The notes: generated from the sequence alone by a model not told the origin. A stretch of 57,517 nucleotides of DNA from Acidobacteriota bacterium (GCA_016935015.1 JAFGRT010000070.1:1-57517); one strand, 5' to 3'. Counted from the stretch's first letter, positions 2,813-50,535 are shown. Numbers and translations are program-made.

Positions 2813-5800
2813 TCAGGTCTCCGTGACGGTCGTCAGGGACTGTTCCAGGGCGGCGGGCAGTCGGCGGGCCAGGTCGCTGACGGCCGGTTCCTGAAGGACG
2901 GCGGCATGACGGCCCTGGATGTGATGGACCGTCACCCCGCGGCGGGCGAATCTTCCCCAGCCGAGGTCCGTGGTCTGCGGATGCAGCAGGCCGCGGGAGC
3001 GGGAGCGGAACACATGCACGTGCAGGTCGCCCCGCGGGGGGGTATACCGCTGCAGGACCTCCAGGTGACGGAAGGCGAATTCCTTGCGCTCATCCCGCAC
3101 ATCGCGCATCCAGTCATACCGGTCGTGGCCCATGACCCGACGGACCCGGTCACGCACCGGTGGTTTCGTATCCTGGCCCTCCTTCGGGGATTGCCGCAGC
3201 AGATCCAGTATCCAGAACGGGATACTCTTGACGAAGTTCCACCACATGTTGGGCGTAAGCAGACGGTTCGGCCGCAGGTCCGGCCGCAGCATGCAGGTAT
3301 CCAGCAGGCCGATGAAAGGGACGGTCTTACCCCGGGTGATCAGCTGCCGCGCCATTTCGAAGGCAATGATGCCGCCCGAGGAATAGCCGGCCAGCAGGTA
3401 CGGCCCTTCCGAGAAGTGACGGCACAGCTCGTCAATATAGAATCCGGCCAACTCTTCCAGGGTGCCGAAATGAACAAAACCCTCACCCGACTGGGGGGGC
3501 CGGACACCCCAGACCGGCTGCTCCGGCGGCAGCAGCTCCGCCAGGCGGCGGTAGTTGATGACATAGCCGCCGTAGCTGTGAACGCAGAAGAGAGGCGGCC
3601 GGGAGCCTTCCGGTTTGATCGCCACCAGGACCGATCGCCCGGCGGGCCGGCTCGACCGATTTTCCAGGTACCGGGCCTGGCGGGCGATGGTCGGGGCTTC
3701 GAAGAGCATGGAGACAGGCAGATCCAGACCCAGCCGTTTCTCCAGGTGTCGGATGAGCACCACGGCCAGCAGGGAATGGCCACCCAGGTCGAAGAAATTT
3801 TGATCGGCCGAGTCAACGGGCGAGCCCAGCACGTCCGCCCAGATTTCGGCGATGGTGTGTTCCATGGGTGACAGGGATTCGGAGAGGGGCGGAGCGGCCG
3901 GCAGCGGCCGGCCCGGTGTCTTCACCAGTGCCCGCCGGTCCACTTTTCCGCTGGCAGTCCGTGGCATTCGGGTTAGGAGCTGGAATGACCCGGGGATCAT
4001 GTAATCGGGCAGGGCCGCCGCCAGCCATTCCCGCAAGTCGGGCGGTGACGGTTCATCATCGGCGCCGCCCACCAGGTAGGCCGCCAGGCTGGTATGGCCG
4101 CCTTCATCGGTTACGGAAACGACGGCACAATCGCCGACGGCGGGGTGCTCGCCCAGGCGCGCCTCGATTTCCCGGGGTTCGACGCGGAAGCCGCGAATCT
4201 TGACCTGACGGTCGGTCCGGCCCCGGAATTCAATGACGCCGTCTTCGCGCCAGACGGCCACATCGCCGGTGCGATACATTACGGCGCCGGGTGTGCCGGC
4301 GAAGGGATCCGGCACGAACGCCGCGCGGGTCAGATCGGGCCGGCCGTAATACCCTTGCGCCACTGGCTGGCCGCCAATGGCCAATTCGCCCGGGACGCCA
4401 ATGGGCACAGGCTGGAGAAGCGGATCGAGAACGTACAGGCGGGCGTTGGCAATGGGGCGTCCGATGGCCGGCAGCGCCGGCCAGTTGTCCGGCGCACCGG
4501 TCAGTGGGTACGACGACACCACGTGGGTTTCGGTGGGGCCATACTGGTTTTCCAGCCGGCATCCGGGCAGGCGGAGGAAAAAATCCCGAATGGCCGGGGT
4601 GATCCGCAACTGCTCGCCGGCCGTGATCACTTCCGACAAGCTTGACGGAAAAACCGCCCGGTGAACCGCGGAGTCGGCCAGGTGATGCAACATCACATAG
4701 GGCAGGAAAATTCGATGAATCTCTTGCGCAACGAGGAACGCCAGCAGTCGTTCGGGATCGCGCCGTTCAGCATCAGTGGGCATGACCAAGGCGCCGCCGG
4801 AGGCCCAGGTGGTGAAAAGCTCCTGAAAGGAGACATCGAAACTGGGCGAGGCGAACTGCAAGGTGCGCCGGCCGGAGTCAAATGCGGGTTGCCCGATCTG
4901 CCAACGGATAAGATTGAGCAGGGGGCGGTGCGGCATGGCCACACCCTTGGGGATGCCTGTCGATCCCGAGGTGAATAGAATATAGGCCAGGCGCTCCGGG
5001 TCGGGGTCCGGAGGTGGCAAGTCAGGTGGTGCGGTTGCCGCCGCCGTCGGCTGATCTTCCATGATGAGTAGCGGGCACGGCGCCGTCGACGGGTGGAATG
5101 GCGAAGCCTCGCCGCGTCCGACGAGGATCAGCCGCAGCCGGGCCTGGGCGGCCATAAAGTCCAGCCGCTGGGATGGATATTCCGGATCCAGGGGCACACA
5201 GGTCGCACCGGCCCGCAATACACCCAGGACAGACACGGGCAGGCGCCAGCCCCGGTGAAGGCAGAGTCCCACCCGGTCGCCCGGCTCGACACCCTCCCGT
5301 CTCAGCCGGGTGACCAGGTCATCCGCCGCCGCCAGCAGCTGGGCGTAGGTCAATCCACCATCCGCCGAGATGACGGCCGGATGATGGGGAATCCGGCCGG
5401 CGGTTTCGGTGACGAATCGGGTGATGTCACCGCCGGGCGGCGACTCCGTTCGCGTATCATTCCACTCGACCAGAACCTGCCGGCGCTCCGCCGGCGAGAG
5501 CAGGGGCAGCCGGCCGATAGATTGCGCCGGGTCGGCCGCAATCCCCTGCAGCAGCAACAAGTAGTGATCGCGGAGACGGCGCGCGGTCGCTGGAGTGAAA
5601 AGGTCGGTGTTGTACTCCAGGAAGCCGGTGATCTCCTCGCCACGAGTCTCCAGAAAACAGGACAGGTCGAAGAGAGCTGTGCCGCGGTGGAGCCATTGGG
5701 GCGTCACGTCCAGGCCCATCAGGCGCAGAGGCTGTGACGATGTATTCAGCAAAGCGAACATCATCTGGAATAGAGGATTGCGGCTGAGGTCCCGGGCGGG

Positions 5801-7027
5801 CTGCAGCTCGCGCACCAGTTTCTCGAAGGGGATTTCCTGATGATCGTAGGCGTCCAACGCCACCTCCCGAACCGCACCCAGGAAATCCAGGAAGGACTTG
5901 TCCGCCCGGAGATGACTCCGCAACATCAGGGTATTGACGAAAAAGCCGATGAGGGGCTCGATCTCTCGCCGGGTGCGATTGGCCACGGGAGTCCCGATGG
6001 TGATGTCGGCCTGGCCGGTATACCGAAACAGCAGGCTCTGGAAAGCCGCCAGCAGGGTCATGAACAGGGTCGCCCCCTCGCGGCGGCTGAGGGCCGTCAA
6101 TTCCGCTGTCAGCGCTGCCGGCAACGTCAGGTATTCGACGGCCCCGGCCGAGGTCTGGACGGCCTGCCGCGGGCGGGCCACCGGCAATTCCAGCGGCTCA
6201 GGAAGGGATCGGAAGTGTTCCCGCCAGTACGACAACTGCTGTTCCAGAATCGGACCCTGCAGCCGCTCCCGCTGCCAGATGGCGAAATCGGCATATTGCA
6301 CGGGCAGATCCGGCAAGGCCGGTGTGTTGTTCGATCGATGGGCCGCATAGAGAAGGGATAATTCGTTGTAGAGGATGCCCAGTGACCAACCATCGGAAGC
6401 GATATGATGGGTGATCAGCAACAACAGGTGATCCTGCGGCGCCAACCGGGCCAGGGCGGCACGCAGCATAACGTCCCGCCCCAGATCGAAGGAACGCCGG
6501 CTCTCCTCCCGCAACCGTTCCCTGGCGGCAGCCAGGCGGCCGGTGGCGGGCAGCAGCTGCAGGTCGATCTCCGTCAGCACCACCGGGCTGGCCGGGCGAA
6601 CCTGCTGGTAGGGCCTGGTTTCGCCGAGGGCATAGACGGTTCGTAAAACCTCGTGACGCTGGACAAGACCGTCCAGGGCTCCTTGGAGGGCGGCGATGTC
6701 GAGAGGTCCCAAGAGCCGGAAGGCCCGGGAGATGATATACGCCGGGCTGTCTCTATCCAGCTGGTCCAGGAACCAGAGCCGCTGCTGGGCAAAGGAAAGG
6801 GGTATCTGCGCCGGCCGCGGCTGTGGGATAAGGTCACCGGCAGTTTCTCCGGCCAGACGCTGACCGAGACGGGATCGCAGCAGCGCCAGCTGGGCGGGCG
6901 ACAGGCCGGCGACCTTTCGGGCCAGGTCCGGTGGCAGATCGGAGAGCGGGACGGCGGTGGAATCACTGGTTCCATCCGGCGGGTAGCCGTTTACGTACGG
7001 ATCGTAGTCTTCACTGTAATCAGTCAT
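2813..7027 (-). CDS. NRPS module C-A-PCP-TE (termination, proline-like A domain)
   Basis: A 1404-residue nonribosomal peptide synthetase. Domains in order: condensation (about 70-500, catalytic HHIASDG), adenylation (about 530-1040; FTSGSTGIPKG, NQYGPTETH, YRTGD, GRTDRQVKIRGFRVE), peptidyl carrier (about 1055-1125; LGGHSL with the phosphopantetheine serine) and a type I thioesterase (about 1150-1390; GYSSGG nucleophile, a downstream Asp in LLDTC and a His in GRHAAV). Aligning the A domain by eye to GrsA gives the pocket code D-V-Q-F-I-A-Q-V-V-K, which matches the known proline code DVQLIAHVVK at eight of ten positions. The ETHVV and FDVSFQELF stretches are also typical of proline domains. The gene is the last of the three-gene operon, 30 bases behind the previous NRPS, with GGAG before its ATG. 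The TE should release the finished acyl-dipeptide as an acid or ester. Confidence 0.93.
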   Translation of the reverse strand: MTDYSEDYDPYVNGYPPDGTSDSTAVPLSDLPPDLARKVAGLSPAQLALLRSRLGQRLAGETAGDLIPQPRPAQIPLSFAQQRLWFLDQLDRDSPAYIISRAFRLLGPLDIAALQGALDGLVQRHEVLRTVYALGETRPYQQVRPASPVVLTEIDLQLLPATGRLAAARERLREESRRSFDLGRDVMLRAALARLAPQDHLLLLITHHIASDGWSLGILYNELSLLYAAHRSNNTPALPDLPVQYADFAIWQRERLQGPILEQQLSYWREHFRSLPEPLELPVARPRQAVQTSAGAVEYLTLPAALTAELTALSRREGATLFMTLLAAFQSLLFRYTGQADITIGTPVANRTRREIEPLIGFFVNTLMLRSHLRADKSFLDFLGAVREVALDAYDHQEIPFEKLVRELQPARDLSRNPLFQMMFALLNTSSQPLRLMGLDVTPQWLHRGTALFDLSCFLETRGEEITGFLEYNTDLFTPATARRLRDHYLLLLQGIAADPAQSIGRLPLLSPAERRQVLVEWNDTRTESPPGGDITRFVTETAGRIPHHPAVISADGGLTYAQLLAAADDLVTRLRREGVEPGDRVGLCLHRGWRLPVSVLGVLRAGATCVPLDPEYPSQRLDFMAAQARLRLILVGRGEASPFHPSTAPCPLLIMEDQPTAAATAPPDLPPPDPDPERLAYILFTSGSTGIPKGVAMPHRPLLNLIRWQIGQPAFDSGRRTLQFASPSFDVSFQELFTTWASGGALVMPTDAERRDPERLLAFLVAQEIHRIFLPYVMLHHLADSAVHRAVFPSSLSEVITAGEQLRITPAIRDFFLRLPGCRLENQYGPTETHVVSSYPLTGAPDNWPALPAIGRPIANARLYVLDPLLQPVPIGVPGELAIGGQPVAQGYYGRPDLTRAAFVPDPFAGTPGAVMYRTGDVAVWREDGVIEFRGRTDRQVKIRGFRVEPREIEARLGEHPAVGDCAVVSVTDEGGHTSLAAYLVGGADDEPSPPDLREWLAAALPDYMIPGSFQLLTRMPRTASGKVDRRALVKTPGRPLPAAPPLSESLSPMEHTIAEIWADVLGSPVDSADQNFFDLGGHSLLAVVLIRHLEKRLGLDLPVSMLFEAPTIARQARYLENRSSRPAGRSVLVAIKPEGSRPPLFCVHSYGGYVINYRRLAELLPPEQPVWGVRPPQSGEGFVHFGTLEELAGFYIDELCRHFSEGPYLLAGYSSGGIIAFEMARQLITRGKTVPFIGLLDTCMLRPDLRPNRLLTPNMWWNFVKSIPFWILDLLRQSPKEGQDTKPPVRDRVRRVMGHDRYDWMRDVRDERKEFAFRHLEVLQRYTPPRGDLHVHVFRSRSRGLLHPQTTDLGWGRFARRGVTVHHIQGRHAAVLQEPAVSDLARRLPAALEQSLTTVTET

Positions 7028-7057
7028 TCGTACTCCATGCGTCCATGTCCGGCCGGC

Positions 7058-10000
7058 TCAGGCTGATTGGTCCGGCCGCCGGGATTCCATGATTTCATCC
7101 ACCAAGGACTCCACTTCGGGCTCCGGGATGGACAATTGTCTGTCGATCCACTCGGCCAGCTCATCCAGCCTGGGCCGGTCGAACACTACCCTTAGCGGAA
7201 CCGCCAGGCCCAGCGCCTTCTCCAGCCGCACCACCAGCCGGGTGGCTAGCAGCGAATGTCCGCCCGAGTGGAAGAAATGCTGCCGGCGGGAGATGCTTTC
7301 CAGTTCAAGGATTTCCCGCCAGATGTCGGCCAGGTGCTTTTCCTGAACGGTCCGGGGCGGGGACGGGTCGTCGTCCATGACACTCGGGACGGAACATGTG
7401 GGCAACCGCCCATAGTCGACTTTGCCGCTGGGGAGGACCGGCAATTCGGTCACGCACTCCATCCGCGCCGGAATCATATAATACGGCAGCTTGCGCGCAA
7501 GGAAGCGCCGGAGTTGCGGAATCGATATGGTGGAATGTCCGGCTATGGGGGCAACGTAAGCCGCCAGCTGATCGCCCGATGATTTGCTTGGCTGCAGGAT
7601 GACGGCTGCCTGACCGACCTGGGGATGGGACCGCAGGCTGTTTTCGATCTCGCCCGGTTCGATGCGGAAGCCGCGCAGCTTGATCTGCCGGTCGCGGCGA
7701 CCCATGAATTCGATGTTCCCGTCGGCCAGATATCGCCCCCAGTCGCCGCTGCGGAACATCCTTTCCGTGCCACCCGGGCGGAAAGGATCGGGCAAAAAGC
7801 ATTCGGCGGTCAGTTCGGGACGCCGGTGGTAGCCCTGGGCCACGTTGATCCCGCCGATGTATATTTCGCCGGCCACTCCCGGCGGGACGGGCCGTTGGTG
7901 CCGGTCCAGGATGTAGACCCAACAGTCGCGGATCGGGCGGCCGATAGGCAGAGTGGCGGCTTCATAATCCTTTGTACACGGCCACATGGTGGCGAAGATG
8001 CATGTTTCCGTGGGACCGTACCCGTTGTAGACCGCGACTCCCTTTCGCATGAATGCTCGGGCCAGATCGGGCGGACAGATCTCGCCTCCGGCGACGATGC
8101 GGGTCACAGACGGACAATGGAAAATACCGCCGTGGTCGGCCAGCAGGCGCAACCAGCCGGGGACGCCTTGCAGCAGGGTGATACCATGACGCCGGATCAA
8201 GTCCACCAGGTACGCAGAATCCCGCGATCCGTCGGGCGACGCAACCACCAGGCCGGCTCCGGCGATGAGTGCCGTAAATATTTCCGAGAAAGCGAAGTCG
8301 AAAGAAAAATTCGCCTGGTGCAACAGGACATCCCGCGGAGTGACCCGGAGGAAATCGGCCAGCCAGCCGATGCAGTTGTCCAGTGCCTGGCGGCGGACGG
8401 CCACACCCTTGGGGCGGCCGGTGGAACCGGAGGTGTAGATGAGATACGCCTCATCCGCGGAGTTGCTCACCGGCAGCAGGGACGGATCACTCCCGACCGG
8501 CTCCGCAGGAACGCTCAGCGTGGGCCAGGACTGTATCGGTACAGTTATTCCCCAGAAATCCTCGTCCGGAGATCGGGTGATGAGCAGGTCCGGCGCGGCG
8601 TCCTCAAGGATGAAGCGGCGGCGGTCACGCGGATCCTCCGGGGCAAGAGGCACGAAAGCCGCGCCGCAGCGCAGGACGGCGAGCACGGCCAGCACGAGTT
8701 CCGATGACCGCGGCAGAAGGATGCCCACCCGACGGCCGGGGCCCATACCTTGAGCGGCCAGGCGGCGGGCCGCCCGGCGGGTGAGGGTTATCAGCTCGCC
8801 ATAGGTGACGACAGTTTCGTCAAAAACCAGGGCCGGCCGGTCCGGTCCTTGGGTGGCCTGCTGTTCGATGCGAGTCATCAGGGGGATGGGGGTCGAGGGT
8901 TGCAACGGGCCGCTGGACAAAACCAGAAGGCTGCTCCGCTCCTGTTCCGTCATCAGATCGATGCGCGACACCGGTTCATCAGGGCGGGACAGCAGTTGTT
9001 GCATCACGTGCTCATAATGCCGGATCATTCGCCGAATCGTCTCCGCCGCGAACAGGTCGGTGTTGTATTCGATGTGGCCACGCAGAAGATCGCCGATCGG
9101 CTCCATATCCAGCGTCAGCTCGAATCGGGCGATGCCGAAATCCACCGGCACCAGTTCCAGGATGAGGTCTCCGGCCGGCGGTGGAGGCACAGGGAAATTT
9201 CGAAAGTTGAACATCATTTGGAAGAGCGGGGACCGGCTGAGATCCCGCGGCGGTTGCAGCTCCTCCACAACCCGCGCAAAGGATAAATCCTGGTATTGGC
9301 CCATCGCCAGTATATCCTGACGGATGGCGGCCAGTAGCTGCCGGGCGGTGGGATCGGCGGCCAGATCAGCCCGATACACCTGGCTGTTCATCAGGCAGCC
9401 GATCATGTTTTCCAATGCCGGGTGAGGGCGGCCGGCCACGGGGATGCCGATGGCGAAATCGTCCTGGGAGGCATACCGTTGCAACAGGATGGCCCAGCCG
9501 GCCAGCAGGATCATAAACGGAGTAAGCCTGTTCTCGTGACCGAATTCCCGCATGGCCGACATCAGTTCCGCGTCCAGCGTCACCGGGCACCACGCGCCGC
9601 GGAATGATTCCATCGCGGGTCGGGGATAATCCGTGGGCAGTTGGAGGGGAGGACAGGAATGCAGCTTGCCGCGCCAGTAATCCAAGGCGGGTTGGACATC
9701 CGCCACGGCGGCTTGTCGCTGCTCCCAGCAGGCGAAGTCGCCGAACTGCAAGCCGGGCGCGGCATCCGCGGGTCGGTTGTGGAGGATATCCTCACAGGCG
9801 GCGGCCAGCTCACGTCGAAACAGAAGTTTGGACCAACCGTCGAAAATCAGGTGGTGGGTCAGGACCAGCAGCGCATGTTCATCCTGTCGGACCCGCAGCA
9901 GAACATATCGGGTCAACGGTCCCTTTTCGAAATCCAAAGGCATCCGGCTCAACCGGCGGAGCAGCTCCACTGTCGAGGCATCCGGTGGAGTGAAAGAGAG

Positions 10001-10393
10001 TCCAGGCTCTTCCATGACCTGTAGCCGAGGTTGTGACTCCGGCTGAACGATCTGCCGGGCTCCTTTATCCGTGAAGAAAACGGTGGTGCGCAGGATTTCG
10101 TGCCGTTGGTGCAAACGCTGCAAAGCCGCCGGCAGGATGTCCGCCCGCAGGGGTCCCCGGATGTGGATGAGAAAGGGATTTCGATAGGCGCCGGCGGCGG
10201 CTAGCTGATCCAGCAACCAGAAGCGCTGTTGCGCGAAGGACAGAGGGATCCCCGCACCTTCCTCCCGGGCGGGTATCTCCGGCATGACGGCAGTGGGCGT
10301 TCCAAGGCGACGGCCCCATTTTATCTCCATCAGCCGCCGCTTGTCCGGCGAGAGATTATTCCATCGATGCTGCCAGTCAGATTGGTTCATCAC
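7058..10393 (-). CDS. NRPS module C-A-PCP (first elongation module)
   Basis: A 1111-residue synthetase. Domains: condensation (about 45-470, catalytic HHLIFDG), adenylation (about 490-1000; YTSGSTGRPKG, NGYGPTET, FRSGDWGRY, GRRDRQIKLRGFRIE) and a carrier domain (about 1020-1090) whose serine motif is HSGGHSL rather than LGGHSL. There is no epimerase, methyltransferase or thioesterase. The A-domain pocket read against GrsA is roughly D-F-S-Q-V-G-G-I-F-K, which I do not recognise, so the amino acid is undetermined. Because the upstream gene ends in a carrier domain loaded by an acyl ligase, this C domain probably accepts an acyl starter and N-acylates the first amino acid. The start is a GTG at 10393, or the ATG directly after it at 10390. 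It lies 45 bases downstream of the ligase gene and ends 30 bases before the terminal module. Confidence 0.92.
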   Translation of the reverse strand: MMNQSDWQHRWNNLSPDKRRLMEIKWGRRLGTPTAVMPEIPAREEGAGIPLSFAQQRFWLLDQLAAAGAYRNPFLIHIRGPLRADILPAALQRLHQRHEILRTTVFFTDKGARQIVQPESQPRLQVMEEPGLSFTPPDASTVELLRRLSRMPLDFEKGPLTRYVLLRVRQDEHALLVLTHHLIFDGWSKLLFRRELAAACEDILHNRPADAAPGLQFGDFACWEQRQAAVADVQPALDYWRGKLHSCPPLQLPTDYPRPAMESFRGAWCPVTLDAELMSAMREFGHENRLTPFMILLAGWAILLQRYASQDDFAIGIPVAGRPHPALENMIGCLMNSQVYRADLAADPTARQLLAAIRQDILAMGQYQDLSFARVVEELQPPRDLSRSPLFQMMFNFRNFPVPPPPAGDLILELVPVDFGIARFELTLDMEPIGDLLRGHIEYNTDLFAAETIRRMIRHYEHVMQQLLSRPDEPVSRIDLMTEQERSSLLVLSSGPLQPSTPIPLMTRIEQQATQGPDRPALVFDETVVTYGELITLTRRAARRLAAQGMGPGRRVGILLPRSSELVLAVLAVLRCGAAFVPLAPEDPRDRRRFILEDAAPDLLITRSPDEDFWGITVPIQSWPTLSVPAEPVGSDPSLLPVSNSADEAYLIYTSGSTGRPKGVAVRRQALDNCIGWLADFLRVTPRDVLLHQANFSFDFAFSEIFTALIAGAGLVVASPDGSRDSAYLVDLIRRHGITLLQGVPGWLRLLADHGGIFHCPSVTRIVAGGEICPPDLARAFMRKGVAVYNGYGPTETCIFATMWPCTKDYEAATLPIGRPIRDCWVYILDRHQRPVPPGVAGEIYIGGINVAQGYHRRPELTAECFLPDPFRPGGTERMFRSGDWGRYLADGNIEFMGRRDRQIKLRGFRIEPGEIENSLRSHPQVGQAAVILQPSKSSGDQLAAYVAPIAGHSTISIPQLRRFLARKLPYYMIPARMECVTELPVLPSGKVDYGRLPTCSVPSVMDDDPSPPRTVQEKHLADIWREILELESISRRQHFFHSGGHSLLATRLVVRLEKALGLAVPLRVVFDRPRLDELAEWIDRQLSIPEPEVESLVDEIMESRRPDQSA

Positions 10394-10438
10394 GGTTGAT
10401 TCATTCCTGGCGATCGGCGGCGGCCCAACCGATGCAGC

Positions 10439-12322
10439 CTAGCGGTTCGCGTCGATTTCGCCGTCGGCGTCTTTCAGCAACTGCCGGACGTCATCCTCGG
10501 ACATATTCTCGATCTCACCCAACAGATCCACCAGTTCGTCGGCTGGAGGCTGGTCGCCCAATCGGGCCGCCAAACGTGACAATGTAGGATTCTCAAAGAT
10601 ATCTGCGCTCTCCACCCGGATGCCCAGCTCACGACTGAGGCGGACGGCGATGCGGGCCGCCAGCAGGGAATCACCGCCCAGGGCGAAGAAATTGTCCTGG
10701 CGGCCGATGGCGTCTTCGTGGGCCAGTACGTCCCTCCAGACGGCCGCCACCCGGATCTCCCGGTCACCCGCGGGCGGTTCATAGGGTTGCTGCAGGATTC
10801 CGGCCAGCTTGTCCGCCAGGCCGACGCGCTGCAGCTTGCCGGATGGTCCCTTGGGAATAGAATCCACAAAGACGATTTGCTGCGGTACCTTGTAGGGCGC
10901 CAGTTTGCGGGCCAGATAGCGGCGCAGCTCGGACTCGGCCGGCTTCGGTCCCGGTTCGGTCACCACCGCCGCGGCAATCCCTTCACCCAGCCGGGGATGC
11001 GGCACGGCAAACACCACCGCCTGCCGGACGGCGGGATGCGCCACCAGGGCTTCGTCGATCTCTCGTGGCGAGATCTTCTGCCCGCCCCGGTTGATCAGTT
11101 CCTTGAGCCGGCCGGTGATGAACAAATAGCCGTCGGAGTCCAGGTAGCCCTGGTCGCCGGTGCGGAACCAGCCGTCGAAGAAGGCGGAGCGGTTGGCCTC
11201 GGTCTGACCGGCATAGGCACCGATAATGTTCGGTCCCCGGACGACGATTTCACCCGTTGTGTCCGGCGGCAGCAGGCGGCCGTCTTCGCTGCTGATGGCG
11301 ATCTCCGGACCGGCGGCCGGGCCCACCGAGCCCGGTTTGCGCAGGCGGGGCGGCAGCGGATTGCTGGCGATCTGGTGGGCGGCCTCCGTCATACCGTACG
11401 CCTCGATCACCGGCACACCCAGTCGCTGCTCCAGATCGGCCAGGAGGGAAGGGGGCAATGCCGCTGAAGAGGAGCGGGCCAGGCGCAGGGTGGAGCGGAT
11501 CGGCGCCGGCCGGTCGGCCAGAACCTGTAAGACACTCTGGTGAATGGTGGGTACGGCTGTGTACCAGGTCGGGGCGAAATCGTCCAGCCAACCGGGGAAG
11601 TGTTCCGCAGCGAACCCGGATGTGCAGATCACGCCACCGCCAGAAACCAGCGAGGCCAGCAGCGCGGCGATGAGTCCGTGAATATGGAAGAGCGGCATGA
11701 CGTTCAGGCAGCGGTCGACGGGGCCCAGTTGCAAGCTGTGAGCCACGTTGGCCGCCGAACGGAAGATGCGGCCGTGGGTGAGCGGCACGATCTTGGGATG
11801 GGAAGTGGTGCCCGAGGTGTGGAGGACAAGGGCCACTTGTTCGGGTCGGACGGAGGGGGTCTCCGTTGGGTCTTCAGCCGGACCGGGCGACAGGGTGAAA
11901 TAGCCGGCTCCTGCGGCCCGCTCCGGCTGGATGGCGATGATGGATCTCCCGGTGGTCCGGGCGGCGGCTTCGGCCGCCGGAGTGGCGCCCGGCTGCAGCA
12001 GGACGGCTTTGACCGCCAGGTCCTGAAAATAATACTGAAATTCCGCTTGACGATAGGCGGGGTTCAAGGGGGCGGCGGTGGTCACCGCGGCGACCGACAG
12101 AAAGGCGACCGCCATTTCCGGACCGTTGGGCAGCACGATGGCGCAACCGTCTGCCGGGCCGACGCCGTGCGACCTGAGCGCAATGGCTGTCTGCGAGGCG
12201 ACTTCCCTCAATCGCCGGGCTGTCAGCGGTGGTCCTCCCGGAGCGTACAGGATGGCGCGTTCCGGGCTTGTCCGGAATTGTTCCAACAGGTCTGCCATGC
12301 AGGACAGGTGGTGATGAGGCAT
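10439..12322 (-). CDS. acyl-AMP/CoA ligase fused to carrier protein (NRPS loading module)
   Basis: A 627-residue protein. Residues 1-500 form an ANL-family acid ligase (HTSGTTSHPKIVPLTH, EAYGMTEAAHQ, WFRTGDQGYL, GRLKELINRGGQKISP and the C-terminal lysine in PKGPSGKLQR). About 525-590 is a carrier domain with LGGDSLLAARI. The last 35 residues hold an acidic helix (EIENMSEDDVRQLL) of the kind found at the ends of PKS/NRPS proteins, probably for docking. The start chosen is the ATG at 12322, with AAGGAG 9 bases upstream. An upstream in-frame ATG at 12364 has no such site and would add 14 unlikely residues. As first gene of the operon and lacking a C domain, it most likely activates a carboxylic acid and loads it as the starter. 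The ligase resembles coumarate/oxalate-CoA-ligase types more than long-chain FAAL; the acid itself cannot be read. Confidence 0.88.
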   Translation of the reverse strand: MPHHHLSCMADLLEQFRTSPERAILYAPGGPPLTARRLREVASQTAIALRSHGVGPADGCAIVLPNGPEMAVAFLSVAAVTTAAPLNPAYRQAEFQYYFQDLAVKAVLLQPGATPAAEAAARTTGRSIIAIQPERAAGAGYFTLSPGPAEDPTETPSVRPEQVALVLHTSGTTSHPKIVPLTHGRIFRSAANVAHSLQLGPVDRCLNVMPLFHIHGLIAALLASLVSGGGVICTSGFAAEHFPGWLDDFAPTWYTAVPTIHQSVLQVLADRPAPIRSTLRLARSSSAALPPSLLADLEQRLGVPVIEAYGMTEAAHQIASNPLPPRLRKPGSVGPAAGPEIAISSEDGRLLPPDTTGEIVVRGPNIIGAYAGQTEANRSAFFDGWFRTGDQGYLDSDGYLFITGRLKELINRGGQKISPREIDEALVAHPAVRQAVVFAVPHPRLGEGIAAAVVTEPGPKPAESELRRYLARKLAPYKVPQQIVFVDSIPKGPSGKLQRVGLADKLAGILQQPYEPPAGDREIRVAAVWRDVLAHEDAIGRQDNFFALGGDSLLAARIAVRLSRELGIRVESADIFENPTLSRLAARLGDQPPADELVDLLGEIENMSEDDVRQLLKDADGEIDANR

Positions 12323-13102
12323 GGTGGGATACTCCTTTTCAGGCGGATAAACCACGAATTTCATCGGGCAGATCGTATCGACGGAATTCCGTTCCTGGCC
12401 ATACGGCGTCTCATCCCATGCGGTGAAAGAGCCGTGGAGGATTCCCGCCGATGACCGTGAACAGCAAGTGATGCTGTGAAGCAGCGGCTCTCCATGATCA
12501 TCGGTTGCAGACAGCGGAATCCTATATCCATCGTGTGGAAACCGATTACCGTCGACTCGATGGGAAAGCAGCCATCGCCGTTAACTGTGCCGGAAAGCAT
12601 TTCTGTTACCGCCGCGACCGCCCCGCCGGTTTATGACAAACACCACTCGACTGATCGAACGTCTGCCGGCCAGAAGAGGGGCCGATCCACTCGCGTGTGT
12701 TGCCCGTAAAAGAGAAAATGCCCTTCTCCTGCCGCCCATTGCCAAAGCTGAATCGGGTGTGTGTCTTCCGGCAACAGCGAGAATCCATTGTAGCAAATCG
12801 GATTTCCCCAATCCAACCTGCTTTTTGATGACTTTCCCACCTCAGGATAGGCGGATAGCGCCGGGGAACGTCCGGCGCGGAATCCGGGGGTTCCTCGCCG
12901 GGTTCCGAGGAGACCATTGAATCAGGCGGCGCCCACGGTTGCCTGATCCTTCGGGTGGTACGGAAATGAGGGATACATCATTGATGAGATCCAATACAGT
13001 CCTCGCCGGAAATCGCCTGGGGGACCTATCCACCCGTCTACTTTGCCGGAACATTCGACTTCATTTGAAAAGAGATTGAATTTCCGAAAAGTTGGTTATA
13101 GG
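12323..13102. other. intergenic region between NRPS operon and radical SAM operon
   Basis: About 780 bases between divergent operons with no convincing gene; the open frames here are short, on both strands, and lack ribosome sites. It should hold the promoters of both operons, but I see no clear -35/-10 pair for the NRPS side. A perfect 7-bp inverted repeat (ATCAGGC at 12921-12927, GCCTGAT at 12941-12947, 13-base spacer) lies in the middle and could be an operator or a small hairpin. No tRNA-like fold was recognised. Confidence 0.5.
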
Positions 13103-13387
13103 ATGACGGCTGTTAGGATCATAACTGACGATACGGGGTGTCCTGGGCCGGATATGGGATGGATCATGGCCATCACGGACCTGGAACCGCGGGACGTCCG
13201 TGCGGATGTTGTCGATCGAGCCAAAAAACGGTCGGGGGCAGATTTCTGCATGCGGATCATCCAACCCATCATTGGTGGCGACCCAATTCGGGTCGCCACG
13301 GACGCGTCGAGACACACGACGGTTCCCGTCGACATGCATCTCGCAACGACGCCTGTTTGTGCGATTGCAACGAGGATGCGGAGATGA
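13103..13387 (+). CDS. small ORF translationally coupled to the radical SAM gene (unknown)
   Basis: A possible 94-residue protein beginning MTAVRIITDDTGC and ending in an arginine-rich ATRMRR. I do not recognise its family. Its TGA stop overlaps the ATG of the radical SAM gene (ATGA at 13384-13387), a common sign of coupling and the main reason to list it. It contains three cysteines, one near the C-terminus in TPVCAIATR. The ribosome site is weak (ATAGG directly before ATG), third-position GC is only moderate, and a perfect hairpin lies inside the frame. It could be a leader or precursor peptide for the radical SAM enzyme, or non-coding leader DNA that happens to stay open. Confidence 0.35.
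   Translation: MTAVRIITDDTGCPGPDMGWIMAITDLEPRDVRADVVDRAKKRSGADFCMRIIQPIIGGDPIRVATDASRHTTVPVDMHLATTPVCAIATRMRR
13275..13299. repeat. perfect 10-bp inverted repeat upstream of the radical SAM gene
   Basis: GTGGCGACCC (13275-13284) and GGGTCGCCAC (13290-13299) are exact reverse complements around a five-base AATTC loop. There is no T tract, so it is not a standard terminator. It lies 85 bases before the radical SAM start and could control its expression as an mRNA hairpin or an operator. Confidence 0.7.
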
Positions 13388-15048
13388 AAGTGGAACAACC
13401 GGCAGTCAACGGCTGCAACCTCGTGAGAACTTCTTTGCCATCGCCGCCGCAAAGCGCGGGGGCTCAACGTTTTTTTGTCACCGTGGGCGAAGATCGGTTT
13501 CTCATTTACGCTCCGCTGAAAGGTCTGGCCTTTATCGGCAACGGGCCATTGGTGCGGGCGATCCAACGACAGCAGCAATTCCATGATGCTGAATTGCCCG
13601 ACCGGGAAGACGGCCATCGCCAACGCCGGACAGCCGCGGCGGATCCCCGGCTGGATTTTCTGGAACAGCTCGATTTTTTCACGGCGGATCCGGAGCCGGC
13701 CATGCCCCAATTGGGCAACGAACCGGAATATGAATCCGTGGTGCTCTTTCTCACCAACCGCTGCAATTTGCGCTGCGTGTATTGTTACGCCGGATCCGGG
13801 GATGGACCATCATGCGATATGAGCTGGCCAATGGCCCAGGCGGCGGTGGATCACGTGCTGGAGCTGGCCCGGCGCCGACCGAACCCCGCGCTGCTGGTGG
13901 GATTTCATGGTGGCGGTGAGCCTGTTCTAAACTGGGACGTATTCCGGCGGACTGTTGAATATGCCCGCCGGATCAGCCGGTTGCAACATGTGGAGGTTTT
14001 CCTCAGTTGTGCCTCCAATGGGATCTGGACCGCGGATCAGACCCGGTTCATCGTGGAACATCTGGACCAGGTGAACATCTCCTTCGACGGCCTGCCCATG
14101 GTTCAGAATCAGCAACGTCCCGCGGGCGATGGTCACCCCACCGCCGGGGCCGTCTGCCGGACCATCCGGTCGCTGGATGAGGCGAAAGCGGACTACGCCA
14201 TCCGCCTGACGGTGACCCGCGACAGCGTGACGTCCCTGGCCGAGAGCGTCCGGTTTATCTGTGACCGGTTTCGACCGTCGACTCTCCAGGTGGAACCGGT
14301 CTACGCCCTGGGTCGCGGTGCACGATTGCCCTCGGCCATTGCCGATCCGGTGCTGTTCATTGAACAGTTCATACAGGCCGACCGGATCGCCGAAGCGGCC
14401 GGCGTGCGTTTTTTTTACAGCGGCGCTCGACCCGATACCATCACGAACCGCTTCTGCATGGCCCCGCTCCAGGCGCTGGTGGTGACGCCCCAGGGGTACG
14501 TGACCACCTGTTTTGAAGCGTTGGATCCGGAATGCCCCCGGCAGGGTCACTTCATCGTGGGTGCGTATGAGTCCGCGGCGGGATTTCATCTGGACCTGGC
14601 CCGCTGGCGGGACATCGCCGCTGACACGGCCCATCTGCCGCCCCAATGCACCACCTGTTTCTGTCGCTGGCATTGTGCCGGGGATTGCCGGGGCGTCCGG
14701 ATGTGGGAACATTCAACGACGGCGGAAACCGACCGTTGCCGGATCAACAAGGAGTTGACCAAATATCTGATTCTAAAAAAAATCAATGAATCCGGCGGCT
14801 GGATCTGGCGACGGGGCGGCATCCCCGTTGAGGAGGTAATGCCGGAGGCATCCCCCCCCTCAGCGGCAAAGAAAGGGAGCAGGCATCACCTGTACGTAAG
14901 GAGAGATCGCGGATGGGTGAAAATCAACACAATACATCGTGCTTCATCCTGCAACGACAATACGAAGACGGGGCGGAATCCCCCCCTGAAATCTATCCGG
15001 TCCATGATGTCGATCTGGAATGGAATACGGACCGGCGTGGTTTCCTGA
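13384..15048 (+). CDS. radical SAM/SPASM protein, putative peptide- or protein-modifying maturase
   Basis: A 554-residue protein. Residues 1-110 form an N-terminal region with FLIYAPLKGLAFIGNG that resembles the leader part of other SPASM maturases. The radical SAM core follows, with CNLRCVYC near 127-134 binding the [4Fe-4S]-SAM cluster, and GFHGGGEPVLNW near 180 as the SAM-binding GGE motif. The C-terminal SPASM region carries FCMAPLQALVV...TTCFEAL and the CTTCFC...C...CAGDC cysteines near 360-440, for auxiliary clusters. Such enzymes typically install thioether, C-C or similar crosslinks on peptides, or modify sulfatases. The last 45 codons run into the next gene: the frame overlaps the WD40 gene by 136 bases, and the residues beyond about 510 look unlike protein, so the true domain probably ends earlier. 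It is divergent from the NRPS operon. The likeliest target is the downstream WD40 protein or the small upstream ORF. Confidence 0.85.
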   Translation: MKVEQPAVNGCNLVRTSLPSPPQSAGAQRFFVTVGEDRFLIYAPLKGLAFIGNGPLVRAIQRQQQFHDAELPDREDGHRQRRTAAADPRLDFLEQLDFFTADPEPAMPQLGNEPEYESVVLFLTNRCNLRCVYCYAGSGDGPSCDMSWPMAQAAVDHVLELARRRPNPALLVGFHGGGEPVLNWDVFRRTVEYARRISRLQHVEVFLSCASNGIWTADQTRFIVEHLDQVNISFDGLPMVQNQQRPAGDGHPTAGAVCRTIRSLDEAKADYAIRLTVTRDSVTSLAESVRFICDRFRPSTLQVEPVYALGRGARLPSAIADPVLFIEQFIQADRIAEAAGVRFFYSGARPDTITNRFCMAPLQALVVTPQGYVTTCFEALDPECPRQGHFIVGAYESAAGFHLDLARWRDIAADTAHLPPQCTTCFCRWHCAGDCRGVRMWEHSTTAETDRCRINKELTKYLILKKINESGGWIWRRGGIPVEEVMPEASPPSAAKKGSRHHLYVRRDRGWVKINTIHRASSCNDNTKTGRNPPLKSIRSMMSIWNGIRTGVVS

Positions 15049-16373
15049 AAGCATCCGCCCTGGGGGCCGGTCTGTTGAGTTGTTGGCTGCGTCCGGATCA
15101 TCCGGTCATGGCCCAGGCGTTGACCAGTGTTCCGGCCATATCCAAAATTCAGGCCGGCGCTGAAGAAGTGACGAGAGTTGTCTTTTCCGCGGACGGGGAG
15201 TGTCTGGCCTCATGCGGAGAAGGCACCGACCTGAGGATCTGGGCGGTCTACAACGCCGGAAATCCCAAAATACACTCCTTCGAAAACGATATTCTGGCCC
15301 TTGCCTCTTCCCGGCGGGAGAGGAAGTTTTATATCTCCACGGCGGCCGGTCATTTGCAGTGCCTCGATTACGAGAGCAAGAAGGAGGAATGGGCGCTGCG
15401 GATGTCCGTCAACACCACGAGCCTGGCCGTCAGGCCGGATGACACACTGTTGGCCTGCGGCCTGGAAGAAGGCACCATCCAGCTGGTGGAAACCATCGCC
15501 GACAAGGCCCTGGGCCAGATCGCGGCCCATGATGACATGATCCTGGCCATGGACTTTTCACCCGACGGACAGTATTTGGTCTCCGTTTCCGCCGATGGAT
15601 CGCTGGGTGTGTGGCGCATGCCCGACGGTATCCCGCTGTGCGACCGCCGCCCTTTCGGCCGGGCCATTGGTGCGGTGGCCTTTGACGCATCCGGACAGCG
15701 TCTCGCCATCGGTCTGATCGATGGGTACGTGTGCGTCCTGAAATTCCCATCCTTGGAAAAGATCAGTGAATTCAAGTGCTTTCCCGACGCGATTATGGAT
15801 CTCTGTTTCGTGTATGACGGGAAATATCTGGCCACCGCCGGCAGCCGCCATCCGATCCGGATATGGTATCCGGCCACGGGTCAGAAAAGGACGGAGCTGT
15901 CCGGCCACAGCGCGGCGGTGAACTGTCTGGCCCGGTCGCCCCGTGGAGACATGCTGGCTTCCGGCTCGGATGATATGTCCATCCGCCTGTGGGAGCTGCC
16001 CTCCGGACGCCTCCTGACATGCTGCTTTGACCCCAGCGTCATGGAAAACACCAAAAAAGTAACCCAGTACCGGATCGTTTTGGACAATGGACGAACCATG
16101 GTAGCCAACGTACCCTCGGGGATACGGATGCCCACTGGCGCCACTTGCGTTTGCTATTCGGTGGCGGGTCTGGTCGACAAGACAATCACCATGCCCAACG
16201 GCATCCGTAAAGAGCGGCCCGGTCCACGTCAATGGTATCCGTCCGGCAGCAGCCCTGGTTATCCCCGTCGGCCGCGCAGCAGTTACACACCCAAACCGCG
16301 CAGTTCGATCGGAAACAGAAGTGAAATCTGCACCTGCAACCTGGTGTGTATCTGTATCCCTGTTCGACAGTAG
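14913..16373 (+). CDS. Tat-type exported WD40 beta-propeller with CxC-rich C-terminal tail
   Basis: A 486-residue protein; AAGGAGA 8 bases before the ATG fixes the start. The N-terminus has a twin-arginine-like signal (DRRGFLKASALGAGLLS near 40-56) after an unusually long 38-residue lead. Then come about seven WD40 blades (for example FSADGECLASC...DLRIW, FSPDGQYLVSVSADGSLGVW, SPRGDMLASGSDDMSIRLW), enough for one closed propeller, through about residue 370. The final 110 residues are not WD40. They hold a CVC pair (Cys412, Cys414), a stretch rich in Pro, Arg, Ser and Tyr, and a terminal segment with Cys473, 475, 479 and 481 (CTCNLVCICIPV). Cofactor-bound Tat substrates and radical-SAM-modified peptides both make sense of such a tail. 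It overlaps the 3' end of the radical SAM gene. Function otherwise unknown. Confidence 0.82.
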   Translation: MGENQHNTSCFILQRQYEDGAESPPEIYPVHDVDLEWNTDRRGFLKASALGAGLLSCWLRPDHPVMAQALTSVPAISKIQAGAEEVTRVVFSADGECLASCGEGTDLRIWAVYNAGNPKIHSFENDILALASSRRERKFYISTAAGHLQCLDYESKKEEWALRMSVNTTSLAVRPDDTLLACGLEEGTIQLVETIADKALGQIAAHDDMILAMDFSPDGQYLVSVSADGSLGVWRMPDGIPLCDRRPFGRAIGAVAFDASGQRLAIGLIDGYVCVLKFPSLEKISEFKCFPDAIMDLCFVYDGKYLATAGSRHPIRIWYPATGQKRTELSGHSAAVNCLARSPRGDMLASGSDDMSIRLWELPSGRLLTCCFDPSVMENTKKVTQYRIVLDNGRTMVANVPSGIRMPTGATCVCYSVAGLVDKTITMPNGIRKERPGPRQWYPSGSSPGYPRRPRSSYTPKPRSSIGNRSEICTCNLVCICIPVRQ

Positions 16374-47292: not shown

Positions 47293-50200
47293 TCATTTGA
47301 TCAGAGTTTTCAACCGCCCAACGATGGATTGGAAAATCTTTTGGGTGATATCAAACTGCTCGGACAGGAGCTCGAAAAAATCCTCGCGATCCAGCCGCAG
47401 CAGCTTGACCTGTTCGTTGGCGACGGCGGTGGCGATGCGTGGCTCCTCATCGAAAAGGGACCAGACACCGAAGGCCTGGTGCTGTTGAAGGGTGGCGACC
47501 GGTTCACCATCCTTTTCCATTCTCACGGATCCGGACAGAATCACATACAGCGCCTCATTGGGATCCCCCTCGTTGAAGACCGTCTGATTCTGTTCAAAGT
47601 CCAGTTCTTCGGCAATGGCAGCGATTTCAGCGAGTTCATGGGTGCTGCACCGGTTAAAAAAGTCGACCCGCTGCAATATCATGACTTTTTCGATGATGGT
47701 ATACATGATCAATTCCTTTTCGTCCAGTTGACGTCCCCGGGATTGCAGGTAACGTACCGCCGCTTCCCGCTCGATGCGAAGGGGAGAATAGCGAAGTTCT
47801 TCGGCCCGGGCTTCGAGACCGTCCTGGCCGGTGGCGGCCGCGGCGTGAAACAGAGCGGCTTTGGCCACATGAGCCGCGCTGTCGAGAATATAGCCCTGCA
47901 GGGCCGCTGGATCCTCGCCCGCATAGGCCGGCAGGGTTTCGGACAACCGTTGCCGTTTGTCGGCCGGCAGGTCGTCCACCAGCAGAATGACCAGCTCCCG
48001 AGTCTCCCGGTCCAGGATGTTGTCGAGAAACTCGAGGGCGCTGGAACGCTTGCGACGCTCCCCACTCATGATCCCCCAATAGGCCGAAACCATATCTTGG
48101 GGTGGATATTTCAGGCCCAACAGGCGGAACACAAATTCAACGGAAAAGAAGATCCGCTCGGCGAGGGTATTTTCAAGCACCCGGGACTCGCCGCACGTCT
48201 CATCGAACGAAAGCACCTGCCGGGCGGATTCGAAGTTCAGAAAACAGGCGGTTTCACGCCGCAACAATTCACCCTGTCGCTCCTCGGAAATGAGCGGCCG
48301 GGCGGATCGCTTGCGGATCCGGTTGAGAGATTTGAGCACGCGGTAACGCAACAGGTCCACCTGCACATCGAGGGCCTGGTCTAGAATAGTCACCGCGCCC
48401 GGATAGCCTTCCGTCTCCAGCACCCTGGGGATGGCCAGCCGCAAGGAGAGTTCTTCCCGGGGATCCAGCAGGTAATCCCGCAGGGTGCCCTCGATGCGTT
48501 GCCCGAATGCCCGCAGGGCGTCCAGGGCGGCGCGTTTGGTACCGCGACGCTGCAGGGCGGCAAACATGTCCGGCAGAAATTCACGCCGGCTGGATCGCCC
48601 CAGGGCCTGGACCAGGGCGCGCTGGATGTCTGGAGAATCGGTGGTTTGAAAGCGTTGCTTGTATTCATTCAGAAGCTGGACATCATCCAGCAGTCCCAGC
48701 AGATGGATGCCGCTGAGACGCGTGTCGTGCGCCTCGGATTCCAGAAGCGGCTGGACGATGTCCGGTGTGATCATGAAGCGAAATTGATCGGCTTCGGAAC
48801 AATTCAGGACATAGCGGGACGCCCACAACTTTCGCCGGCCATCCCCCTGCCGGATCTCCTCACCCAGGAAGGAACGACAGGTCGGATCGTCCAACGCCCT
48901 CAGATAATTGAGACCCTGGCGGTAGACGTCATACTCCGTCTCTTCCGTCAGCAGGGCCGGAGTCTGATCCACCAGAACCGGCGAAGCCAGGCGTGCGGCC
49001 AGGGCATAGACCTTCTCCCGAACCCGTGGTGATGCATGCGTCACCAGCACGGGCAGATGGGACGTGACGTCGGTATGGTTGGACGCGGCCAGCAGTTCCA
49101 GGGACAAGGCGATCTGGGCCGGATCGTCGGACTGCAGGTTGTTTTCCAGCAGGCGGATGCTCGAGCTCTCGTTGATCTGCAGCCGGATCTGCTCCGGATC
49201 GAGGGTCCGTCGGGCTAGGGATTGACGGAAGGTGTTGACGTATTCCAGCCGGATGCGAAAGATCAGGAAGATCCAGATACCGATTACGCCCAGGGCGATG
49301 AGGCTGATCTGGGGCACCTCCAGCTGAAAAACGGCCGTGGCCAGGATCAGGATGATGCCGCTCAGGCCGCGGCCGGCCCGGTCCACGAACATGTCGATGA
49401 ACGTCTTGGTACGATCCTTTAATCCGGTGGGAATCGGCAGATAAAGCAGTTCCATGCCGGATTTGTTGAGGGAGTAGCGAAAGGCGCCGTCGGAGACCTT
49501 GAGAATGGTCGCCGTGTAGATGGTCGGGATGAGCAGGATACCCAGGTTGCCCAGGGCCAAACCGATGGGCAGGACGGAAATGGCCACGGTCAAACCGAAC
49601 CGGCGGAGAAGATGTTGGGCCAGCAGGAACTGGATGATCAGGCTGATGACGCTCAGGTTGGAATTCCAAAAACCCAGGAACGCCGTCAGGTCGTTTTCGT
49701 CGGGAAATGTGGCGCTGGCAATGGCGTTGAACTGATAGTCGGCCAGCTGTACCACGACGACCGTGGTGGCGATGACCGCCATCAGCAGGCGCAGGTGGCG
49801 GATTTCCAGCAAATCCTGCAGAATGCGCAGGGAGGAATCCTTGGCCGGGGAAACGCCGGAGCGCGGGCGAGGCACGGAAGGCGCACGGAGGGATAACCGG
49901 CTGCGCCGCCAGATGAGGAGTACCAGGCCGGCGAGCAGGCACTGCCCGATGATGTTGGCGAGAATCATGTTCTGGCTGCCGAAAACATGAACCGTCAGGC
50001 GCACGAAATAGCCGCCGGTGATACCGCCGGCGATGGCCATTCCGGCCAGCTGACCGAACAGGCGCTTGGCTTCACGGGGATCGTAGACATGATTGGCCAG
50101 CAACCAGAATTGGGAGGGGACCAGCACCCCGAAAATACTCATCCAGATGTAGAAGGTGTAGAACAGCCAGGGGGTTTTGACGCCCAGGGTGAAGAACAGC

Positions 50201-50535
50201 CAGAAGGCCACCATGTTGCTGAGAATGAAAGCATGAGTGAACAGGATCAGGCGCCGCAGCGGGACTTTTTTACTGAAACGGCCGTAAATGGAGGCAATAA
50301 AGCCGACGATGATGGCCACCAGGATATAGACGTAGGGCAACTGGTCGCTGCCGACCTTGTTCAGGAACATGGCCCGGCCGACGGACTTGATGATGAGGTA
50401 GGAGGAGATCGTGATGTAAATGTAAAGGGACATCAGGAAAAAGATCGTCAGCTCGCCGGGACGAACGGCGAAAGTACGAAAGAGAACGCGCTGCAGAATT
50501 CCGGAAGGATGATGGGAGTCAGCAGTCATATTCAC
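47293..50535 (-). CDS. transporter-like fusion: ATP/ADP-carrier-type membrane domain, HEAT repeats, cyclic-nucleotide-binding domain
   Basis: A 1080-residue protein. Residues 20-430 carry about twelve membrane helices resembling the NTT-type nucleotide transporters or MFS proteins (LTIFFLMSLYIYITISSYLI near 28; FSKKVPLRRLILFTHAFI near 87; YSLNKSGMELLYLPIPT near 350). Residues 440-900 are HEAT-like helical repeats. The last 130 residues form a cyclic-nucleotide-binding domain (FNEGDPNEALYVILSGSVRM near 985). Such three-part proteins occur in several anaerobic and deep-branching bacteria; transport may not be their real task. The start is GTG at 50535, or ATG two codons later. It heads the minus-strand run that ends with the DUF6599-like gene. 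Confidence 0.8.
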   Translation of the reverse strand: MNMTADSHHPSGILQRVLFRTFAVRPGELTIFFLMSLYIYITISSYLIIKSVGRAMFLNKVGSDQLPYVYILVAIIVGFIASIYGRFSKKVPLRRLILFTHAFILSNMVAFWLFFTLGVKTPWLFYTFYIWMSIFGVLVPSQFWLLANHVYDPREAKRLFGQLAGMAIAGGITGGYFVRLTVHVFGSQNMILANIIGQCLLAGLVLLIWRRSRLSLRAPSVPRPRSGVSPAKDSSLRILQDLLEIRHLRLLMAVIATTVVVVQLADYQFNAIASATFPDENDLTAFLGFWNSNLSVISLIIQFLLAQHLLRRFGLTVAISVLPIGLALGNLGILLIPTIYTATILKVSDGAFRYSLNKSGMELLYLPIPTGLKDRTKTFIDMFVDRAGRGLSGIILILATAVFQLEVPQISLIALGVIGIWIFLIFRIRLEYVNTFRQSLARRTLDPEQIRLQINESSSIRLLENNLQSDDPAQIALSLELLAASNHTDVTSHLPVLVTHASPRVREKVYALAARLASPVLVDQTPALLTEETEYDVYRQGLNYLRALDDPTCRSFLGEEIRQGDGRRKLWASRYVLNCSEADQFRFMITPDIVQPLLESEAHDTRLSGIHLLGLLDDVQLLNEYKQRFQTTDSPDIQRALVQALGRSSRREFLPDMFAALQRRGTKRAALDALRAFGQRIEGTLRDYLLDPREELSLRLAIPRVLETEGYPGAVTILDQALDVQVDLLRYRVLKSLNRIRKRSARPLISEERQGELLRRETACFLNFESARQVLSFDETCGESRVLENTLAERIFFSVEFVFRLLGLKYPPQDMVSAYWGIMSGERRKRSSALEFLDNILDRETRELVILLVDDLPADKRQRLSETLPAYAGEDPAALQGYILDSAAHVAKAALFHAAAATGQDGLEARAEELRYSPLRIEREAAVRYLQSRGRQLDEKELIMYTIIEKVMILQRVDFFNRCSTHELAEIAAIAEELDFEQNQTVFNEGDPNEALYVILSGSVRMEKDGEPVATLQQHQAFGVWSLFDEEPRIATAVANEQVKLLRLDREDFFELLSEQFDITQKIFQSIVGRLKTLIK

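Follow-up and report, generated by a model that had tools for sequence, protein, structure and literature searches.

Does a radical S-adenosylmethionine (SAM) enzyme encoded directly before an exported protein modify the cysteine-rich tail of that protein? The question is raised by a 57,517-nucleotide stretch of an Acidobacteriota bacterium genome (GCA_016935015.1 JAFGRT010000070.1:1-57517, hereafter the window), in which a radical SAM/SPASM gene overlaps the gene of a WD40 protein that bears a twin-arginine translocation (Tat) signal and a tail with Cys-x-Cys (CxC) pairs. The original prediction took the tail to be the substrate of the enzyme and knew of no described system of such a shape. 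The analysis presented here makes it probable that the window contains a minimal form of a widespread protein-maturation system, in which a leader-guided radical SAM enzyme would modify the C-terminus of a protein-sized substrate that is exported by Tat. The system is larger than the original prediction supposed, and also includes a leader motif, varied passenger domains and multi-enzyme loci.

The gene pair

The maturase (13384-15048, + strand; here called C-type) has 554 amino acids counted from the ATG at 13384, an in-frame GTG at 13138 being a possible alternative start. Its radical SAM domain (PF04055, residues 123-267) scores above the cut-off and carries the CxxxCxxC cluster motif (13762-13785, +; C127, C131 and C134), and its SPASM domain (14455-14739, +), recognised by sequence spacing and invariance, has the complete canonical pattern of seven cysteines (C358, C376, C422, C425, C431, C435 and C452); all ten cysteines are invariant among 50 homologues. 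At the N-terminus, a beta-beta-beta-helix segment (13471-13668, +; residues 30-95) in the AlphaFold2 secondary structure, with a predicted local distance difference test score (pLDDT) of about 95 over residues 31-60, is a putative RRE, the domain that recognises leaders of ribosomally synthesized and post-translationally modified peptides (RiPPs). Most C-type homologues are 440-490 amino acids long, and the final ~75 residues of the window maturase extend beyond them as a C-terminal extension that is predicted to be disordered (14821-15045, +; pLDDT <50 at residues 480-554) and overlaps the start of the WD40 gene.

The WD40 protein (14913-16373, +; 486 amino acids), the proposed substrate, begins inside the maturase reading frame in a different frame, with an overlap of 136 nucleotides. 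Its start can be fixed because it is supported both by an AAGGAG ribosome-binding site 9 nucleotides upstream of the ATG (14898-14903, +) and by the leader motif described below. Each gene stands alone, and the overlap was rejected as a reading-frame artefact; judging from the predicted disorder and the homologue lengths, it is probably incidental. Behind the leader lies a Tat signal (15027-15119, +; TDRRGFLKASALGAGLL...) with its arginines at residues 41-42 and a modelled helix at residues 41-58, which matches TIGR01409 at 18.0 bits (cut-off 16.7). The twin arginine, the hydrophobic stretch and a TatC encoded in the host genome (E 1.8e-66) support the expectation that the protein would be a Tat substrate. 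The passenger that follows is a seven-bladed WD40 propeller (15150-16028, +; residues 80-372) according to Pfam, the AlphaFold2 model and superposition on PDB 5yzv (root-mean-square deviation 1.9), and the nearest solved structures of this propeller are ordinary WD40 domains.

The propeller stops at residue 372, and the final 114 residues contain six cysteines, every one of them within a CxC pair: C412-C414 (16146-16154, +), C473-C475 (16329-16337, +) and C479-C481 (16347-16355, +), the last belonging to the final motif ICTCNLVCICIPV. At least three CxC pairs arise in 0.08% of shuffles of this tail, which is predicted by AlphaFold2 to be disordered. The first pair lies in a conserved beta-hairpin adaptor (16059-16163, +; residues 383-417), identified by alignments, the AlphaFold2 model and an own-genome profile match (E 7e-5), whose family consensus TYTLPCGSPIPPGAVCTCNCVPG is degenerate in the window protein; its tail is a divergent member of the family that retains the last unit. 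The features first reported for this pair, namely a complete SPASM maturase overlapping the gene of an exported propeller and a non-WD40 tail with three CxC pairs, were all recovered.

Recurrence and linkage of tail and enzyme

If the enzyme acts on the tail, the two should recur together, and they do so whichever of them is taken as the starting point. Among 396 genomes of the phylum, nine, including that of the window, encode a close maturase homologue (E 1e-50 or better), and all nine also encode a CxC tail or a CxC peptide. In seven of them (the window genome, G001, G010, G025, G120, G234 and G290) a Tat-WD40 protein with a CxC tail adjoins the enzyme; in G063 a small Cys-rich peptide (locus L027) takes its place; and G040, considered as a possible case of a maturase without a substrate, was rejected as such when the tail protein was located on a different contig. 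The tails align to a consensus of TYTLPCGSPIPPGAVCTCNCVPG followed by at least one CTCNxVCTC unit.

From the other side, a scan of GTDB species genomes for the tail only yielded 84 relatives, of which the best 80, representing 79 loci, were kept; since the scan was seeded with the conserved stretches PCGSPIP and GAVCTCNC, divergent tails such as that of the window are under-counted. These loci span at least 12 phyla (Chloroflexota, Acidobacteriota, Pseudomonadota, Bacteroidota, Verrucomicrobiota, Thermodesulfobacteriota, Nitrospirota, Armatimonadota, Planctomycetota, Nitrospinota, Gemmatimonadota and Actinomycetota among them), together with one Aminicenantes metagenome-assembled genome (MAG) and one MAG without a phylum assignment. 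In 57 of the 79 loci the tail gene has a radical SAM homologue no more than 300 base pairs away, always on the same strand and overlapping it in 31, and in 11 more there is one at a larger distance of up to 4 kb. The 4.75-Mb genome that contains the window has six homologues of its maturase, so that chance adjacency would be expected well below 1% of the time, and the linkage seen from both sides led us to reject chance as its source. Thus, WD40 homologues that retain the radical SAM neighbour also show a conserved tail, and the pair occurs far beyond this genome, as the original prediction required. No relatives were found in the viral contigs of IMG/VR, and a phage-borne system was rejected on that ground.

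Two plasmids encode Cys-containing proteins that adjoin distant radical SAM homologues: a Tat-signalled, DUF1344-like protein with CxC just past the signal in Caballeronia sp. NK8 (L029:7230-7829), and a 128-amino-acid Cys-rich protein in Methylocystis iwaonis (L030:7305-7691). The wider substrate family therefore exceeds the present count.

Passengers and tail composition

WD40 propellers are the most frequent passengers between leader and tail, but the same leader and tail also flank unrelated SH3 (PF08239), ConA-like (PF17851), Ig-like (PF16158) and unassigned domains, and L027 is a Cys-rich relative without any passenger. WD40 paralogy was accordingly rejected as the source of the signal; a second WD40 homologue was absent from the window's own genome at E 1e-8. 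Among the tails, 699 of 802 cysteines are within CxC, T, S, N or V occupies the middle position in 88% of 390 pairs, and the spacing between pairs is mostly 6, 2 or 8 residues, a spacing of 2 marking the CxCNC site. Very long tails of CxC repeats (GCGCVSDSG units) occur at L108:7978-9459 and L100:1684-3330, where the fetched stretch has no radical SAM gene.

The proposed layout of the exported protein would thus be leader, Tat signal, folded passenger and CxC core, with the tail probably retained in the mature protein. It could be supposed instead that the modified tail is cut off as a peptide natural product, the propeller serving to carry or display it, since the enzymes and the Cys-rich core resemble ranthipeptide/SCIFF pathways and L027 is a small precursor-like peptide. 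Neighbourhoods of the tail genes, however, have no recurrent protease or peptide exporter: neighbour clustering of the 79 related loci found no protease or transporter group in at least five of them, and a secreted peptide with its own protease and exporter was rejected for this reason. Furthermore, the core precedes an S74-type chaperone domain in L024 and additional sequence in L034, L037 and L082, and Tat transports folded proteins. Release of a peptide is therefore an unlikely fate of the tail.

A leader motif within the Tat signal

The N-termini of the tail proteins share a leader that has two forms, PxFELxRVYxDGTxExPEIVPV...RRGFLGA and EEPEVYAIxR...GWKLSRRDFL, both upstream of the twin arginine. 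When a strict motif was applied to the 66 tail proteins with a recognisable signal, P-x-[IVL]-[YVF] was found to start 16 (n=49) or 17 (n=5) residues upstream of RR in 54, compared with a frequency of 0.14% in control windows from passengers. The window protein conforms in motif and spacing: its leader FILQRQYEDG...PEIYPV (14943-15002, +; residues 11-30) places P25-E-I-Y 16 residues before R41. The small L027 peptide begins similarly, with NNFRLQREDAGDLKPEI, and has neither a Tat signal nor a passenger. As expected of RiPP-type systems, an N-terminal leader is thus common to proposed substrates with differing cores and passengers, and a leader shared by different protein bodies is a mark of leader-guided maturation. 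A lipobox in 25 of the 66 signals suggests that many of the tail proteins are probably Tat-exported lipoproteins.

In the proposed mechanism, the maturase would recognise the P-E-I-Y leader, probably through its N-terminal RRE-like domain, and would modify the CxC core hundreds of residues away, after which the finished protein would leave folded via Tat and, in many relatives, become a lipoprotein. Because the motif sits in the n-region of the signal, leader binding could hold back export while the tail is still unfinished. Tat-proofreading chaperones of the TorD/DmsD type are dedicated chaperones that bind the Tat signal region of their substrate until maturation, whereas in the present system binding of the signal n-region, and with it the proofreading role, may fall to the modifying enzyme itself.

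In the genome G040, three adjacent genes with similar Tat starts (e.g. MDSKKGKTRRGFIKEVSAGA) and without a CxC tail (L016:1221-7136) adjoin a C-type enzyme gene and a gene resembling that of the PqqD-like protein described below.

Additional radical SAM enzymes and the YWxPN end

Clustering of the neighbours defines five groups of radical SAM enzymes: C, the type found in the window (56 loci), A (30), B (28), D (26) and E (25). Group D is PapB-like and group E is related to ChuW/HutW, scoring far under the ChuW/HutW cut-off; D and E are separate adjoining genes elsewhere and are fused into one 922-amino-acid protein in L031 (9388-12156). A YWxPN tail end, or one closely resembling it, is found in every one of the 40 loci with A, B, D or E, compared with one of 28 loci that have only C, and this sole exception (L032) is sited at a contig end. 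Three changes of each trait are seen on a tree of the C enzymes, and the three independent pairs all agree. Genomes checked later follow the same pattern: in G001, G040 and G120, A and B occur together with YWxP[NT] ends; A, B and ends of this kind are all missing from the window genome, G010, G025, G234 and G290, save for a weak, non-orthologous-looking B match in G025 (E 3e-17); and G063 has B and a peptide with a Tyr-rich end. The larger loci, with up to four more radical SAM enzymes, have a YWxPN end that would probably be modified by those enzymes.

Larger loci also carry P, a PqqD-like protein present in 23 loci (e.g. L093:4514-4990), which has 150-175 amino acids, an RR-x-F-F-like motif near the N-terminus and a C-terminal domain that ends RxxFLxLVxxxVCxP; the members of this cluster that were scanned have no Pfam or NCBIfam match.

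A more specific version of the mechanism would make these proteins a new modular exported class with a RiPP-type leader in fixed register within the Tat signal, the maturase holding the signal, crosslinking a distant CxC core and withholding export, and, in larger loci, a relay of up to five radical SAM enzymes also modifying the aromatic C-terminus YWxPN; we regard this version as possible and put it forward tentatively.

Probable chemistry and comparison with known systems

The nearest NCBIfam models of the window maturase are rSAM_nif11, PapB, SCIFF and QhpD, with scores far under every cut-off: 101.6 bits versus 340 for PapB (NF047865), 87.7 versus 425 for the SCIFF maturase (TIGR03974) and 73.6 versus 453 for QhpD (TIGR03906). 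The PapB, QhpD, nif11 and SCIFF models are matched by all 50 C-type enzymes examined, and sequence and fold comparisons both give CteB (5wgg/5why), a maturase that forms thioethers, as the nearest solved structure. Together, these relatives point to sulfur-to-carbon thioether cross-links as the likeliest product. Compared with the ranthipeptide/SCIFF maturases CteB and PapB, which share the fold, the near profiles and a Cys-rich core, the present system differs in its sub-cut-off scores, its large exported substrate and its core of CxC repeats. The maturases of the CXXX-repeat (TIGR04115; 60 bits versus 350) and Cys-every-fifth CefB (NF038107; 59 versus 600) types likewise stand beside substrates with repeated cysteines, but here the cysteines are spaced as CxC, mostly every 6 or 8 residues.

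In function, the closest precedent is the QhpD/QhpC pair of quinohemoprotein amine dehydrogenase. QhpD places three Cys-to-Asp/Glu thioethers in QhpC, a protein substrate that must carry its 28-residue leader to interact with the enzyme; QhpE takes this leader off before the ATP-binding cassette (ABC) transporter QhpF exports the protein (PMC7876137). Both systems have a radical SAM/SPASM enzyme that acts, or here would act, on a protein with an N-terminal leader, with Cys-based thioethers made by QhpD and probable here. In the present system, by contrast, the leader is inside a Tat signal, a folded passenger separates it from the core and the carrier is larger. A protease and an ABC exporter belong to the Qhp system, whereas QhpC-type subunits, subtilisin-like proteases and ABC transporters are not recurrent in the 79 loci, and the neighbours of the pair in the window are nonribosomal peptide synthetase (NRPS) genes and a gene for an unassigned 246-amino-acid protein.

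This precedent raises the alternative that the modified tail is itself a protein-derived redox cofactor or electron-transfer element. QhpD is among the closest families of every C-type enzyme, and a conserved Trp ends many tails; yet tails of C-only loci, including that of the window, have no conserved Trp, flavin monooxygenases and dehydrogenase subunits do not recur in the loci, and the unrelated passengers argue against a single enzyme activity. A redox function of this kind is improbable.

Several observations weigh against the tail as a leader-guided radical SAM substrate. The distance of ~370 residues from leader to core is long for a leader-guided maturase. The tail of the window lacks the Cys of PCG and the final Cys of CNC. 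The association between motif and enzyme set amounts to three evolutionary changes, a number that does not reach significance (sign test p 0.25), and the Fisher p of 4e-18 takes no account of relatedness and is not to be relied on. In 11 of the 79 tail loci no radical SAM gene is in view: four of these are at contig ends (L055, L064, L076 and L097) and in four the gene is on another contig of the MAG (L047, L086, L095 and L106), whereas L100, L105 and L108 have no such explanation. Finally, modification of the tail is inferred, rather than observed or measured. This last point also speaks for the view of the tail as an ordinary metal-binding or disulfide-rich segment, with the radical SAM enzyme acting elsewhere, as does the frequency of CxC in metal-binding proteins generally; the very high two-sided linkage, the common leader and the tail motifs that track the enzyme set make this view highly unlikely. 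The common leader and tail on unrelated passengers and the tracking of the enzyme set by the tail motif support the original proposal that the tail is the substrate of the maturase.

Other genes in the window

Three NRPS-type genes (2813-12364, -) with condensation, adenylation, carrier and thioesterase domains lie on the opposite strand, about 1 kb upstream of the maturase, and show no sign of membership in the tail system. Farther away, a 1080-amino-acid protein (47296-50535, -) combines a TLC ATP/ADP-transporter-like domain (PF03219) with a C-terminal cyclic-nucleotide-binding domain.

Novelty and significance

The maturation system is apparently undescribed. No curated NCBIfam family fits the tails, the leader proteins or the PqqD-like partner, so that a known curated family was rejected, and the enzymes score under every cut-off seen. 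Neither NCBIfam nor the open-licence literature yielded a published description of the tail motif, of WD40 or Tat proteins paired with radical SAM enzymes, or of such large precursors, which agrees with the original prediction.

Radical SAM peptide maturases are known chiefly from small peptides, and QhpC is a rare protein-sized substrate. The loci collected here supply a large set of unnamed enzymes, and the system can be tested because two of them are isolate or strain records (L050, Flexilinea flocculi TC1; L049, Ereboglobus sp. PH5-10). The cassette of leader, passenger and core appears portable and could serve to introduce cross-links into chosen proteins. Exported protein families in at least 12 phyla appear to gain a C-terminal structure made by radical SAM enzymes under the direction of a leader within the export signal; if this is true, radical SAM chemistry would be tied to Tat quality control.

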